Positions 39,184-47,607 of a stretch of DNA of 64,000 bases are shown piece by piece. The notes beneath the pieces are model-generated. The model did not search any database, had not been told where the DNA came from, and saw only the letters and a program-made list of their open reading frames with translations. Numbering within the stretch: the stretch's first letter is position 1; each line of letters starts with the position of its first letter. The translations under genes and the position numbers were made by a program. Origin of the DNA: an uncultured Pelagibacteraceae bacterium (GTDB lineage: Bacteria; Pseudomonadota; Alphaproteobacteria; Pelagibacterales; Pelagibacteraceae); NCBI GenBank assembly GCA_902593845.1, contig CACJJV010000001.1:103085-167084 (forward strand), written 5' to 3'.

Positions 39184-39423
39184 TTATTTTTTAGATTTGC
39201 TTGCCCACCATTTATCTAAAATAAAATACCAAATTGAATTTGCAATTGGTTCAACAATTGCATCTGTCAGTGCAATTTTAAAAGAAACATCTGCTACTAT
39301 CATTAAAACTGTAATCGCAATTGCAAAGTGTCCAATTGTATAAATTACAGTTCTAAGTAAAGAACCTTTATTATTTTGATAAATATTATGGGATGCTTGA
39401 AATATGCCTTTAGTAATTTCCAT
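39184..39423 (-). CDS. DUF2061-like small membrane protein
   Basis: A 79-residue protein with two hydrophobic segments (RTVIYTIGHFAIAITVLMIV and FKIALTDAIVEPIANSIWYF). The early Arg-Thr and the closing FILDKWW resemble the DUF2061 family, whose function is unknown. It starts on the stop of the hydroxylase-like gene (TGATG), so the two are translated together. Gene order on this strand is irr, katG, hydroxylase-like, this gene. Confidence 0.65.
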   Translation of the reverse strand: MEITKGIFQASHNIYQNNKGSLLRTVIYTIGHFAIAITVLMIVADVSFKIALTDAIVEPIANSIWYFILDKWWASKSKK

Positions 39424-40019
39424 CAGTTTTTAAAAGGACTCTCAAGAACACAAGCCACAAGGTGTATTCTAGCCTGTTCACCTCCATTAAAAAAATTATG
39501 ATATTTGGTGTTATTTGTAATCCAAACTTTTCCATCAGCGGGTAAATGTTTCGCGACATTCTCTATAACCATTGAACACCCTTTGTTTGTGATTATAGGC
39601 ACATGAAGCCTACATTCAGGATCTTTGTGCCAACTCAAAGTTGATCTAGGCTCTTTTAATAAAAGTCTAACCCTTCCCAATTTAAATCTCTTGCTTAAAA
39701 CTTTGTAAACTTCTGCAAAGTATGTATTTTCAAATTCAGGTATTAATTGTGTATATTTAGACTCATCTATATCAACATCTCTTGAAACCTCTTTTCCAGT
39801 TTCATCTGCAATTGTCCAATATTTTCCTCTAATATTGCTCCCTTCAATCGAGCTTTTATCGTTTGGAATTTGATTTAATGGAATTGCACCAAAATGTGTA
39901 ACACCTGGTGTATTAAATTTTTTTAATTTCAAAATTTTATCTAAGTCATCTTTTAACTTTGAAATGTCAAAATTTAAATTTGGAACTTCGTAAAAATCCT
40001 CGAAATTTGCTGTTGCCAT
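39423..40019 (-). CDS. Aspartyl/asparaginyl beta-hydroxylase-like 2-oxoglutarate dioxygenase
   Basis: A 198-residue protein with a probable Fe(II) site: H131 and D133 in LSWHKDPECRLHVPIITN and a distal H174 in KYHNFFNGG. R184 in QARIHLVACVL is placed to bind 2-oxoglutarate. The order HxD...H...R and the RLHVP wording fit the Asp/Asn beta-hydroxylase-like family (PF05118). No signal peptide is seen. It starts 22 bases after the katG stop, so it may share the katG transcript. Whether it modifies a protein or a small molecule is unknown. Confidence 0.75.
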   Translation of the reverse strand: MATANFEDFYEVPNLNFDISKLKDDLDKILKLKKFNTPGVTHFGAIPLNQIPNDKSSIEGSNIRGKYWTIADETGKEVSRDVDIDESKYTQLIPEFENTYFAEVYKVLSKRFKLGRVRLLLKEPRSTLSWHKDPECRLHVPIITNKGCSMVIENVAKHLPADGKVWITNNTKYHNFFNGGEQARIHLVACVLESPFKN

Positions 40020-40041: not shown

Positions 40042-42279
40042 TTAATTTAATCTCAAATCAAATCGATCAGAATTCATAACTTTTACCCACGCAGCTATAA
40101 AATCTTTAACAAATTTTTCACTTGAATCCTCACAGGCATAAACTTCTGCAAGAGCTCTTAGTTGAGAATTTGAACCAAAAATCAAATCAACTCTTGTTGC
40201 TTTCCATTTGGTTTTTTGAGTTTTTCTATCTTTTCCAACAAAAGTTTGTTCTGATTTATCTTCCTCTTTCCATGTAGTATTCATGTCTAATAGATTTACG
40301 AAATAATCGTTAGTAAGAGAACCAGGTTTATTTGTAAAAACACCATAATTTGAACCGTCATAGTTAGTATTCAAAACTCTCATACCGCCTATAAGTGCTG
40401 TCATTTCTGGTGCAGTCAGACCCATTAGTTGTGCTTTATCAACCAATTTTTCTTCTGCTGAGACATTTGAAGCTCCGCTATTTAGATAGTTTCTAAAACC
40501 ATCTGCCTGAGGCTCTAGAAGACCAAAAGAATGAATATCGGTTTGATCTTGTCTTGCATCTCCTCTGCCTGCTGAAAATGGAACATTTACTTTTTGCCCT
40601 GCCTTTTTAGCAGCCATCTCAATACCAACACCACCTGCTAAGACAATCAAGTCTGCCATTGATACACTTTTCTTTTTGTTATCAAATTGATCTTTAATTT
40701 TATTTAAAGCTTTAACCACAGTTGATAATTTCTTAGGATTATTTACTGCCCAGCTTTTTTGTGGTTCTAGCATTATTCTTGCACCGTTTGCACCACCTCG
40801 TTTATCTGATCCTCTAAAAGTTGAAGCTGATGCCCATGCAGTCGAAACTAAATCTGAAATTGATATTTTTGATTTAGAAATTTTGTTTTTTAAATCTTTT
40901 ATATCTTTTGATTTAAGTTTGTACTTTGGTTTATCAATTGGATCTTGCCAAATTAAATGCTCTTTTGGAACTTCGCTACCTAAGTAACAAACTCTTGGAC
41001 CCATATCTCTATGAGTTAATTTAAACCATGCCCGAGCAAATGCATCATGAAACTCTTTAGGGTTTTGATGAAAATGCTTTGTAATTGGTCCATAACTTGG
41101 ATCAACTTTCATTGATATATCTGTTGTTTGCATCATTGGTGGATGAAGCACACCTTTTTGATGCGCGTCAGGAACCATCTTAATTTTTTGACCATTTTTC
41201 TTTGGAGTCCATTGATGAGCTCCAGCTGGACTTTTTGTTAATTCCCAATCATGACCGTATAAACAATCTAAATAACCCATATCCCATTTAGTAGGATTTT
41301 GAGTCCAAGCACCTTCGATACCACTGCTTATTGTATCGACACCTTTTCCAGATTTATATCCACTGTTCCATCCAGTAGACTGATCTTGAAGTTTTGAAGC
41401 TTCTGGATCTGGACCTTTGTAAGACTCTGATGCTGCTCCGTGAGATTTTCCAAATGTATGTCCTCCAGCAACTAAGGCTGCTGTTTCGTAATCGTTCATA
41501 GCCATTCTTCCAAATGTCTCTCTGATATCGTGTGCTGCTAGTAGTGGATCAGGATTTGCATCCGGACCTTGTGGATTTACATAAATCAAGCCCATGTGAG
41601 AAGCGCCTAACGGCTGCTCTAGATCTCTTTTTCCACTGTATCTCTCAACACCTAGCATTTCTTTTTCTGAACCCCAATAAATATCGTCCTCTGGTTCCCA
41701 GATGTCTGTTCTACCTGCACCAAAACCAAAAGTTTTAAAACCCATAGAGTCTAATGCTACGTTTCCAACTAATATAAATAAATCTGCCCATGAAATTTTT
41801 CTTCCATATTTTTTTTTGATTGGCCATAAAAGTAACCTTGCTTTATCTAAATTCACATTATCTGGCCAAGAATTGAGCGGAGCAAATCTTTGATTGCCAG
41901 TGCCGGCACCACCTCTACCATCACCTGTTCTGTAAGTTCCTGCAGCGTGCCAAGCTAATCGAATAAATAAAGGACCATAATGACCATAATCTGCAGGCCA
42001 CCATTCTTGTGAGTCTGTCATTAATTTTTTTAAATCTTTTTTTAACGCCTTGTAATTAAGTTTTTTAAATTCTTTCGCATAATTAAATTTTTTATCCATA
42101 GGGTTTGATAAATCAGAATGCTGACTAAGAATTTTTAGATTTAAACTATTTGGCCAGAAGTCTCTTACTGTTTGACCTCTTCCTGCAGAAAACTTTGCAG
42201 GTGTGCCTGCCCCTGTAAAAGGACATTTGCTTAACTCATTAGCTTTAAAAGATTTATTTTTGAAATTTTCAGTGCTCAT
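40042..42279 (-). CDS. katG: Catalase-peroxidase
   Basis: A 745-residue haem enzyme that removes hydrogen peroxide by catalase and peroxidase activity. The distal site is R107, W110 and H111 in [12 protein letters not shown], and the proximal ligand is H274 in [12 protein letters not shown]. The Trp-Tyr-Met cross-link that gives catalase activity can be placed at W110, Y233 ([10 protein letters not shown]) and M259 (GRMAMND). The second, haem-free repeat follows from about residue 440 ([18 protein letters not shown]). No signal peptide, so cytoplasmic. The promoter carries an Irr-type box, and the Irr-like gene is next upstream. Downstream are a hydroxylase-like gene and a DUF2061-like gene. 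Confidence 0.97.
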
Positions 42280-42315: not shown

Positions 42316-42344
42316 ACTTTATAATGGTTCTAAATAGCTGTCAA
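42316..42344 (-). promoter_or_regulatory. katG: katG promoter
   Basis: On the minus strand TTGACA (42339-42344) matches the -35 consensus exactly. TAAAGT (42316-42321) at 17 bases, or TATAAA (42318-42323) at 15 bases, would serve as -10. It is located 37 bases upstream of the katG ATG, after the irr-like stop, so katG can be transcribed separately from the regulator gene. Confidence 0.55.
42318..42334. promoter_or_regulatory. katG: Irr-type operator (ICE-like box) in the katG promoter
   Basis: TTTATAA-TGG-TTCTAAA matches the published iron-control element TTTAGAA-N3-TTCTAAA at 13 of 14 defined positions. It lies between and over the -35 and -10 boxes of the katG promoter, a position suited to repression. 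The neighbouring gene encodes an Irr-like regulator. Confidence 0.65.
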
Positions 42345-42377
42345 TTGGTTAATAATGACGCTTAATAAATTGATAAA

Positions 42378-42776
42378 TTAATCTTCGAGTTTGACAAGAA
42401 CTTCAATGGATTTGATTTTCTTACCATCAATTTTTCTTTTAATGTTTATAGGTCCTACATCAGAGTTTTCTAGGTCAATCAACTTTCCATCTTTCAAATT
42501 ATAAAAATGATGATGATCAGTGATGTTTGTGTCAAAATAAGTTTGGTTTGAGTTTACAGGGATTTGCTTTAAATATCCTTTTTTTTCAAAAGCATGAACT
42601 GTATTATAGATTGTTGCTAAAGATATTTTGTTATCTATTTTATCTTTAATTTTTTGCTCTAACTCATTTATTGTGAAATGAAATGTTCTTTCAGTATTAA
42701 ACAGAACCTCGCATATCTGAAGCCTTTGTTTAGTAGGTCTTAATCCAGAATTTCTTAATTTTTCAATAAATTTCAC
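42378..42776 (-). CDS. irr: Irr-type Fur-superfamily transcription regulator
   Basis: A 132-residue Fur-fold regulator. The winged helix is LRPTKQRLQICEVLF to IYNTVHAFEKKGYLKQ (residues 12-71). The dimerisation part has FDTNITDHHHFYNL with HHH at 88-90, a histidine cluster typical of Irr, and lacks the CxxC zinc pairs of Fur and PerR. The Cys-Pro haem regulatory motif of Bradyrhizobium Irr is absent. In rhizobia irr lies beside fabA-fabB, as here. Irr accumulates under iron or haem limitation and binds ICE boxes, and such boxes occur in front of this gene and katG. A PerR-like peroxide sensor is the alternative, less favoured by the motifs. Confidence 0.8.
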   Translation of the reverse strand: MKFIEKLRNSGLRPTKQRLQICEVLFNTERTFHFTINELEQKIKDKIDNKISLATIYNTVHAFEKKGYLKQIPVNSNQTYFDTNITDHHHFYNLKDGKLIDLENSDVGPINIKRKIDGKKIKSIEVLVKLED

Positions 42777-42794: not shown

Positions 42795-42811
42795 GTTAAA
42801 ATTATTCTAAA
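42795..42811. promoter_or_regulatory. irr: Second Irr-type operator between irr and fabA
   Basis: GTTAAAA-TTA-TTCTAAA matches the ICE consensus at 12 of 14 defined positions, with one half perfect. It is 19 bases upstream of the irr ATG and just past a minus-strand TATAAT (42817-42822), so it would overlap the irr start of transcription. A plus-strand TATAAT (42819-42824) facing fabA lies at its right edge, so it could touch both promoters. Confidence 0.55.
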
Positions 42812-42870: not shown

Positions 42871-43371
42871 ATGAAAAAAAACTCTTACTCATACGATGAA
42901 CTAATAAATTGTGGTGAAGGGAAATTATTTGGTCCTGGTAATGCTAAATTACCTCTTCCACCAATGCTTATGTTTGATAGAATTACAGAAATTAATGACG
43001 ACAAGGGAGCTTTTAAAAAAGGCTTATTAAAAGCTGAGTTAGATATTAAAAATGATCTTTGGTTTTTTGATTGTCACTTTAAAGAAGATCCTGTTATGCC
43101 AGGATGTTTAGGATTAGATGCTATGTGGCAATTAGTTGGTTTTTTTCTAGGTTGGAAAGGAAATCCTGGTAAGGGAAGGGCTTTAGGAGTTGGTACTGTT
43201 AAATTTACAGGTGAGGTTTTAAAAAGTGTTAAAAACGTAAGGTATGAAATAGATATGAAAAAAATAATGTCACCTGGAGGAACAACAGTCGGGCTTGCTA
43301 ATGGCATTTTACTTGCTGACGAGAAAAAAATATATTCTGCAGATAATTTAAAAGTAGGATTGTTTAAATAA
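42871..43371 (+). CDS. fabA: 3-hydroxydecanoyl-ACP dehydratase/isomerase
   Basis: A 166-residue hotdog-fold enzyme that dehydrates 3-hydroxydecanoyl-ACP and isomerises the product to cis-3-decenoyl-ACP, the branch point to unsaturated fatty acids. The catalytic His lies in [15 protein letters not shown] and the Asp in [12 protein letters not shown]. Length equals the usual 170. It starts a fabA-fabB-fabI operon (1-base overlap, then 2 bases). It is divergent from the irr-like gene. Confidence 0.96.
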
Positions 43372-45372: not shown

Positions 45373-47607
45373 TTAATATAAGTTTTGTCTCGATCTAACA
45401 GCTCTTAACTCTAATAAATTTTCGTGTCCTACGCCATCTTTATCAATTCTACTAATAACAGATTTAATATTCCACCCATTATCAAAAAACCAATCAAATC
45501 CGGTTTCAAAAATAATCATTGAGCTAAAGTTTTTGTCAATTGTAGTGTTATATTTGGTGGTATTTCCAACATAGTTAGCTTGTATATCTGACCCATCTGT
45601 AAGATCCTTACTAAAATCTAACTTTAAATAAGGAATAAATAATGATTCGGTAAGATATATTTCTTTCTCAATGGCAGATCCTAAAGAAATTGATGATGTT
45701 TCAAGTTCTCTTTTACCAAATTTTAACTTTGAACTACTGCTACCTGTCTCAGAATATCCATCAAAATTTACAAAACCAAAATCAAATTTGGAATAATTGT
45801 GAAATTTATAATCTTTATGGACATTCTTGAAATTATATTTAACCGAACCAAAAACTTGTTTTGCCTTGAATTTACCTTTTACAACATTAGAAGGGTTTGA
45901 GATGTCAATAATACGTGTTGTAGCGTAAGTAGTTTTTCCAAATCCTAAAAAAGAATCAATATAATTTTTTTCAGATCCTTGCCAGGTATTATATACAGAA
46001 AAATTATTAGATCTTGCTAAAAATCCAGTACTATCTTTAGTACCTATATCAGATTGATCATCTTCGTGCCTCAAAGCAAGTCCAAATAAAGAACCCTTAT
46101 CATAATTAACATCTGCACCTACTATAAAACTCTCAGTTCTATTTATTATTCCTAAATCACCAACTGAGCTAAGATTAAGTCTACCCTTATTAATTGAGCC
46201 AGCTGTCCAAAATGCCCAATCCTTGGGTGTCATATTATAATTTTCTTTTAAATATTTTGTTAATGGAAGTTCACTAATTAAATCATTAACATTTTTTGCG
46301 GATAAATTTTTATATTCATCAATGTAATGATCAAATAATTCAGTTGGTATTTGTTTATTGTAATTATTTTGATCATTGGCAAGAGTCAATCTCATATCTT
46401 TAATTCGAGTTGATTTATTAATTCCAACTCTTCTAAACTGTTCCATTCTACGCATGACTTGATTGGTGGTATTAAACATAAATCTTTTAGCATATTCTGT
46501 TTGTGCGTTTATCATTCCACTTACTTGTTTATCATTGAATGCAGTGTAAGTACTGCCACTAGCTTCTGTTGAATTAATTTTTAATGTTGTTTGACCGCTT
46601 ACTGTTGCACTTTCACCAGCTGTTCCACCATACTCAATTACATATGCTGTAGTTGTATCTTCTGTGCAATGTAAATCATTCCACTGACCTTTTACGGCAG
46701 CTGGAGAACCATACATATGAGCACAATTTTCTTCTCCGTCTTCATCACTATGATGGTCGTTAGGTTCACCACTTTTCCAATTCACATATTCATATCCTGA
46801 TGCTACCGTGCAATCTGGATGAGCAGGATCAGCTTTGGGTTCAATTTTTTCCTGGCAGTGAAAAGTTTTTCCATTATCAGGTCCTGAAACCCACTCCCAA
46901 GTACCCTCACCAGCTAGTCCATCTGTGGGATCAGATCCTGCACCACCACTAGTTATTGCTGGATGGGTATTAGATGTATGTGTTGCATCATCAGATGCAC
47001 CAATCCAAGTAGCGGTACTAATTTTATTTTTAATAAAATTATTTTCAGCTGCACTTGTAATTGTTACAAGATAACCTGTTAGACCTAGGTAAGTTGAGGC
47101 TTCTGCGGCAGTTTTTGCATCTTCCCAATTAATCGTTCCAGTTACAAGTTGATAATAATGACCATTGCCTGAAAAATAATTTGTACCAGCTGGAGTTACA
47201 GCAACAGTAATAGTAGGAGATCCAGCAACACCATCGCCTTTAAATGATAATGTTGCAAGTGCATTATTAATATCATCTTGGGTACCTCTAAAACCCACTT
47301 CTGTAAGAGAATTACCTGTACACTTAGAAGGTGCACTTGAATTATCACTTGAATAATCACAATAGCCTGCCGCCTGCATTAAATTAGTAACAGACGTTAC
47401 CTTTATATTTCCATCCGATGCTACTGCTGAAACGAGAAGGGTTCCTGTGTAACCACTAATACTAGGTGTTGTTCCTGAACTTGATAATAAAACAAAATCT
47501 GTTGTGTCAGTCGTTAAAGTTGTGGGCATTGTGAGTGTGCCTGAATAAGCTTTATTACTGTTAAAGAAAAATAATAAAATCATCAAACTTAGAACAGTAA
47601 CTCTCAT
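45373..47607 (-). CDS. Lectin-type autotransporter surface protein
   Basis: A 744-residue exported protein. The signal peptide is MRVTVLSLMILLFFFNSNKA. Residues 24-145 look like an adhesin repeat (FRGTQDDINNALATLSFKG is the cadherin-like/VCBS wording). Residues 148-328 form a C-type lectin-like domain with the sugar/Ca motif EPN (281-283), WND (309-311) and paired cysteines C251, C266, C295 and C314. A helical linker follows, then about 280 residues of alternating strands from WAFWTAGSINKGRLN to a C-terminal aromatic, fitting an autotransporter beta-barrel. It should display a sugar-binding passenger outside the cell. It lies 42 bases after pnp on the same strand. Confidence 0.8.
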   Translation of the reverse strand: MRVTVLSLMILLFFFNSNKAYSGTLTMPTTLTTDTTDFVLLSSSGTTPSISGYTGTLLVSAVASDGNIKVTSVTNLMQAAGYCDYSSDNSSAPSKCTGNSLTEVGFRGTQDDINNALATLSFKGDGVAGSPTITVAVTPAGTNYFSGNGHYYQLVTGTINWEDAKTAAEASTYLGLTGYLVTITSAAENNFIKNKISTATWIGASDDATHTSNTHPAITSGGAGSDPTDGLAGEGTWEWVSGPDNGKTFHCQEKIEPKADPAHPDCTVASGYEYVNWKSGEPNDHHSDEDGEENCAHMYGSPAAVKGQWNDLHCTEDTTTAYVIEYGGTAGESATVSGQTTLKINSTEASGSTYTAFNDKQVSGMINAQTEYAKRFMFNTTNQVMRRMEQFRRVGINKSTRIKDMRLTLANDQNNYNKQIPTELFDHYIDEYKNLSAKNVNDLISELPLTKYLKENYNMTPKDWAFWTAGSINKGRLNLSSVGDLGIINRTESFIVGADVNYDKGSLFGLALRHEDDQSDIGTKDSTGFLARSNNFSVYNTWQGSEKNYIDSFLGFGKTTYATTRIIDISNPSNVVKGKFKAKQVFGSVKYNFKNVHKDYKFHNYSKFDFGFVNFDGYSETGSSSSKLKFGKRELETSSISLGSAIEKEIYLTESLFIPYLKLDFSKDLTDGSDIQANYVGNTTKYNTTIDKNFSSMIIFETGFDWFFDNGWNIKSVISRIDKDGVGHENLLELRAVRSRQNLY

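Follow-up and report, generated by a model that had tools for sequence, protein, structure and literature searches.

A predicted Irr–katG switch, conserved across SAR11 bacteria and with an unusually small regulon

Does the 17-base palindrome in the promoter of a SAR11 catalase-peroxidase gene serve as the operator of the Irr-type regulator encoded beside it, and to what signal would such a switch respond? The question is raised by a stretch of 64,000 nucleotides from a Pelagibacteraceae genome, analysed here as a whole and called the window below. In it katG, which encodes a bifunctional catalase-peroxidase, a haem enzyme (40042-42279, minus strand; NCBIfam PRK15061, 1213 bits, and TIGR00198, 1123.6 bits, both above cut-offs), has irr (42378-42776, minus strand) directly upstream at a distance of 98 bp. 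Divergent from irr runs fabA-fabB-fabI, starting at 42871; its first gene, fabA (42871-43371, plus strand), is the landmark by which the absence of irr can be located in relatives without it. Downstream of katG by 22 bp lies an aspartyl/asparaginyl beta-hydroxylase-like gene (39423-40019, minus strand; Pfam PF05118), overlapped by a gene for a DUF2061 membrane protein (39184-39423, minus strand; Pfam PF09834). The former adjoins katG in 29 of 30 loci and the latter is found there in 27 of 30. The three genes probably form an operon and, as the two followers are conserved behind katG, the switch probably controls all three. Elsewhere in the window (45373-47607, minus strand) this SAR11 genome encodes a 744-residue protein that combines an autotransporter beta-domain with a C-type lectin-like domain.

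The predicted Irr-type operator, or ICE box (TTTATAATGGTTCTAAA; 42318-42334, minus strand), reads TTTAGAA-CCA-TTATAAA on the katG strand and agrees with TTTAGAA-N3-TTCTAAA at 13 of 14 positions, as originally predicted. The promoter claimed to overlap it was also borne out, with a perfect TTGACA -35 element (42339-42344, minus strand, read from 42344 to 42339). The box takes up the whole spacer and extends into the -10 element, which is probably TAAAGT (42316-42321, minus strand; 17-bp spacer) and coincides in part with the box's right half; TATAAA at 42318-42323, with a 15-bp spacer, is the alternative. Shuffling the 98-bp irr-katG gap gave an equally good site in 8 of 20,000 trials, and a scan of the window at no more than one mismatch gave 2 sites where 0.225 was expected. 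Matches at the loose threshold of three mismatches were discarded as noise (37 in the window against 38.8 expected). The box is the only intergenic site in this genome with at most one mismatch to ICE; the other such sites fall within the katG and tuf coding sequences and were put down to chance.

Among 397 Pelagibacteraceae genomes, katG was found in 274 and irr in 290. We examined 110 SAR11 katG upstream regions, 109 of which were long enough to score (95 with irr adjacent and 14 without). The conservation foreseen for orthologous katG promoters was found: the box was present with two mismatches or fewer in 94 of the 95 irr-adjacent loci and with a single mismatch in 89, thresholds that dinucleotide shuffles reached in 1.8% (two or fewer) and 0.09% (one or fewer) of cases. 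Locus pairs whose flanks had decayed to background identity (<45%) still shared a 99.3% identical box, a value from the 86 loci passing the box filter that describes how rigid the box is and not how frequent. The pattern TTGACA-N4-TTTAGAA-N3-TTATAAA was then sought as an exact match in 85,462 genomes, giving at least 120 matches. Of the 120 listed, 119 had the arrangement irr-[box]-katG, checked wherever flank length allowed, and nearly all the listed matches lay on contigs named SAR11. The remaining one (L223) has neither katG nor irr nearby and was set aside as a fluke. One carrier of the SAR11 fabA-irr-katG arrangement (L167, PBNK01000001.1) is filed as a Crocinitomicaceae metagenome-assembled genome and is probably a mis-binned SAR11 contig. 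The original prediction had thought a direct irr-katG pairing notable in a SAR11-like genome; the pairing stands but is not peculiar to this genome, as the arrangement is family-wide and ICE-like boxes occur before katG more widely in Alphaproteobacteria.

The regulator is a 132-residue protein of the Fur-family fold (Pfam FUR, 73.5 bits, cut-off 23.1). It was matched best by the NCBIfam models for IrrA (126.8 bits) and Irr (115.4 bits), ahead of the PerR-type (59.8 bits) and Fur (38.8 bits) models, with the scores for IrrA and Irr lying under the curated cut-offs of 150 and 170. The HHH motif (HHHF), of the HxH kind on which haem and DNA affinity depend in Irr (PMC7762939), was retained in all 95 SAR11 Irr proteins. 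These assignments leave room for a protein that works like PerR, holding iron or manganese in a His/Asp site and repressing katG until hydrogen peroxide oxidises that site directly, so that peroxide itself would be the signal. Autoregulation together with control of a neighbouring katG is a habit of PerR, and the box, when read as a 7-1-7 repeat (TTAGAAT-N-ATTATAA), is close to a Per box. Residues H33, D82, H88, H90 and D101 of the SAR11 protein align with the regulatory-site ligands H37, D85, H91, H93 and D104 of PerR (PDB 2fe3) and are invariant in the 95 proteins. Moreover, a search of 46 SAR11 genomes found no OxyR above the curated cut-off, only distant LysR-type matches. However, the same ligands occur throughout the Fur family and hence are not diagnostic, the structural-zinc CxxC that forms the Cys4 site of PerR was absent from all 95 proteins, and PerR models score about half as high as Irr models. 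A PerR-like mode of action is thus possible but, on balance, doubtful.

We consider it likely, with good confidence, that katG is repressed by Irr, with the 17-base box as the operator of the neighbouring regulator and with haem or peroxide causing release. Haem-free Irr would sit as a dimer between the -35 and -10 elements of katG and block RNA polymerase, and by occupying the box in its own promoter it would also hold down its own production. With abundant haem, as under iron sufficiency, Irr would leave and katG and the two genes behind it would be expressed; peroxide, by oxidising haem- or metal-loaded Irr, would probably also bring about release. This scheme draws on studies in which apo-Irr binds ICE, requires an HxH motif and, in response to haem, leaves the DNA or is broken down (PMC7762939), and in which Irr is degraded upon exposure to hydrogen peroxide (PMC4902296). 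For SAR11 we infer Irr binding, repression as opposed to activation, and the haem or peroxide signal. By analogy with rhizobial Irr, katG would be silenced under a shortage of iron or haem, as had been proposed for this locus, with a peroxide signal equally compatible. Note that the amount of Irr protein in Ca. P. ubique did not track iron limitation, and nor did the pattern of its transcript (PMC2864753). The protein result argues against iron-driven degradation of Irr, not against an effect of haem on DNA binding. The N-terminal Cys-Pro haem regulatory motif of the B. japonicum type was not found in the sequence of the SAR11 protein, which makes it likelier that haem acts directly on DNA binding, as in the R. 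leguminosarum type, than that it causes degradation.

Repression is what the position of the box between the -35 and -10 elements leads one to expect. From some ICE positions Irr can act as an activator instead (PMC7762939), and in 30 of the 97 boxed loci a distal box with no more than three mismatches lies 30-33 bp upstream, a spacing of about three helical turns. In some lineages the -35 element is thereby sandwiched between two boxes (L029, L066-L074, L083, L086, L090, L094, L095 and L099), and in L094, L095 and L099 a further palindrome, TTGAGAAYGATTCTCAA, is found upstream of the distal box. In the window the distal position (42349-42365, minus strand), 31 bp upstream of the katG box, holds the degenerate TTAAGCGTCATTATTAA, with five mismatches, where other SAR11 lineages have a good ICE. 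Activation of katG from the box seems improbable nonetheless, for the box covers the spacer and the -10 element, and with a dimer bound there RNA polymerase should be kept out.

It is very improbable that the box is simply a conserved promoter element and no operator at all. Its right half does overlap the -10 element, and the fixed mismatch A generates TATAAA; this C-to-A change in TTCTAAA is the sole departure from ICE, is 91% conserved at that position in SAR11, and we attribute its fixation to the overlap. The left half, TTTAGAA, is nevertheless 96-100% conserved within the spacer, a region in which promoter function by itself does not constrain the sequence. In addition, the distance from the -35 element to the box varies by lineage (mostly 10-12 bp; 61 of the 97 boxed loci have a zero-mismatch TTGACA 10-12 bp away from where the box starts) while the box is rigid, and the same palindrome recurs in the irr promoter. 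Also at odds with a pure promoter element is the behaviour of the box in genomes that retain katG and lack irr.

In those genomes the box mostly decays. It was kept, at two mismatches or fewer, in 3 of the 14 katG loci without an adjacent irr. In eight of the 14 (L080, L085, L091, L092, L093, L096, L098 and L100), which are natural variants, fabA is in its place and precisely irr is absent between it and katG; the box in these loci shows 1, 2, 2, 3, 3, 4, 5 and 5 mismatches (no more than one in a single locus, no more than two in three). No Irr was found elsewhere in the genomes of these eight loci, which gave Fur/Mur-like proteins or nothing. Comparison of these eight with the irr-adjacent loci at the one-mismatch threshold gave a Fisher p of ~7e-7, although the loci are related and independent losses are fewer than the loci counted. 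In five irr-less genomes, the near-complete G009 and G022 together with G019, G031 and G060, katG is located elsewhere and has no box. Counting against the operator reading, three irr-less loci (G006, G177 and G221) still carry a recognisable box, in genomes 82-83% complete. These losses also bear on the idea that the box answers to another Fur-family protein, Fur/Mur or Zur: the genome of the window (G000) encodes three such proteins, of which the two besides Irr match Fur and Zur models best, but Fur/Mur-like proteins persist in irr-less G009 and G022 where katG has no box, and the L003 protein matches Zur best, so that this assignment has very little probability.

How far the regulon extends beyond katG was judged from further copies of the box. 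A second ICE-like box (TTTAGAATAATTTTAAC; 42795-42811, minus strand), with two mismatches, lies in the irr promoter and went unmentioned in the original prediction; the same box recurs at about this position in most SAR11 irr promoters, and irr is therefore probably autoregulated. Across 16 genomes a strict SAR11 motif was found 17 times, and 15 of these sites belong to irr or katG promoters; in genomes without katG the only strict-motif site, where present, is at irr. The two sites outside these promoters, in G003 and G113, are each confined to a single genome: one covers the end of a glycosyltransferase-like open reading frame and the other precedes a membrane-protein gene. In G113 (C1:443720, L263) a perfect ICE box is found 18 bp before a gene for a predicted multi-pass membrane protein, in that single genome. 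A larger regulon sought through perfect ICE matches in 115 SAR11 genomes was rejected, as the 7 scattered sites are about what chance gives; the reversed pattern used as a control for that search is an unfair comparison because its base order differs. By the strict motif, then, the SAR11 Irr regulon is nearly a two-gene regulon, irr plus katG. Six near-complete genomes (G017, G026, G043, G063, G074 and G078) keep irr in the absence of katG, and Irr must therefore have other work or weaker sites.

Outside SAR11, an ICE-like box with two mismatches or fewer was found in 20 of 88 other alphaproteobacterial katG upstream regions, against 8 of 4,400 shuffles (0.18%). One of the 88 (L331) has a perfect ICE before katG. 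Boxed promoters include L300, L310, L314, L318, L320, L326 and L330, and further L334, L342, L349, L359, L360 and the L331 just mentioned. An Irr-type gene adjoins katG in L318, L320 and L342, all with the box, and in L344, without it. The katG-adjacent protein of L320 scores 181.7 bits, above the IrrA cut-off, and a rubrerythrin-like gene lies beside irr in that locus. These boxes make the Irr-katG link testable in genetically tractable strains, and the SAR11 relatives that lack irr provide ready-made natural comparisons. A broader picture, which we offer only tentatively and would not yet favour, is that genome reduction in SAR11 shrank the Irr regulon to about irr and katG, that Irr replaces OxyR there as the main peroxide/haem switch, and that katG is an overlooked core Irr target across Alphaproteobacteria.

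SAR11 are the most abundant bacteria of the ocean, where they meet scarce iron and peroxide made by sunlight. Most offshore SAR11 genera have katG (PMC12636525), and peroxide removal is something on which neighbours such as Prochlorococcus, which has no catalase, depend (PMC3033426). An Irr switch on katG would tie that removal to the haem or iron state of the SAR11 cell.

No direct link between Irr and katG was found in the literature searched, outside which lay most subscription papers and likewise Rodionov et al. 2006, reportedly a prediction of the alphaproteobacterial Irr regulon. The closest relatives of the proposed switch are the Irr/ICE systems of Bradyrhizobium japonicum and Rhizobium leguminosarum, which share with it an Irr-clade Fur protein with HHH, an ICE-type palindrome at the promoter and a repressor geometry. 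Irr in rhizobia has many iron and haem genes under its control, whereas the strict SAR11 sites are almost confined to irr and katG; B. japonicum Irr also has the N-terminal Cys-Pro motif that SAR11 Irr lacks, and the SAR11 target is katG. PerR-katA/katG modules of Firmicutes and others resemble the SAR11 arrangement in their autoregulated Fur-family repressor, adjacent catalase and identical His/Asp regulatory-site ligands, but the SAR11 protein is without the zinc CxxC and falls with the Irr models, and its box is matched to ICE. In Rhodobacter sphaeroides, Irr likewise restrains peroxide defence: mbfA and the peroxidase gene ccpA, which has an ICE box, are direct targets, and katE rises six-fold once Irr is lost, an indirect effect with no box involved (PMC3413700). 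This catalase gene is controlled by OxyR and no Irr binding to it was seen (PMC3413700), whereas SAR11 katG is boxed and has irr adjacent. In Magnetospirillum gryphiswaldense the regulator is Fur, whereas the SAR11 candidate is Irr; in both an iron-responsive Fur-family protein would act on an alphaproteobacterial katG, and in M. gryphiswaldense it does so directly (PMC3251581, PMC5459824).
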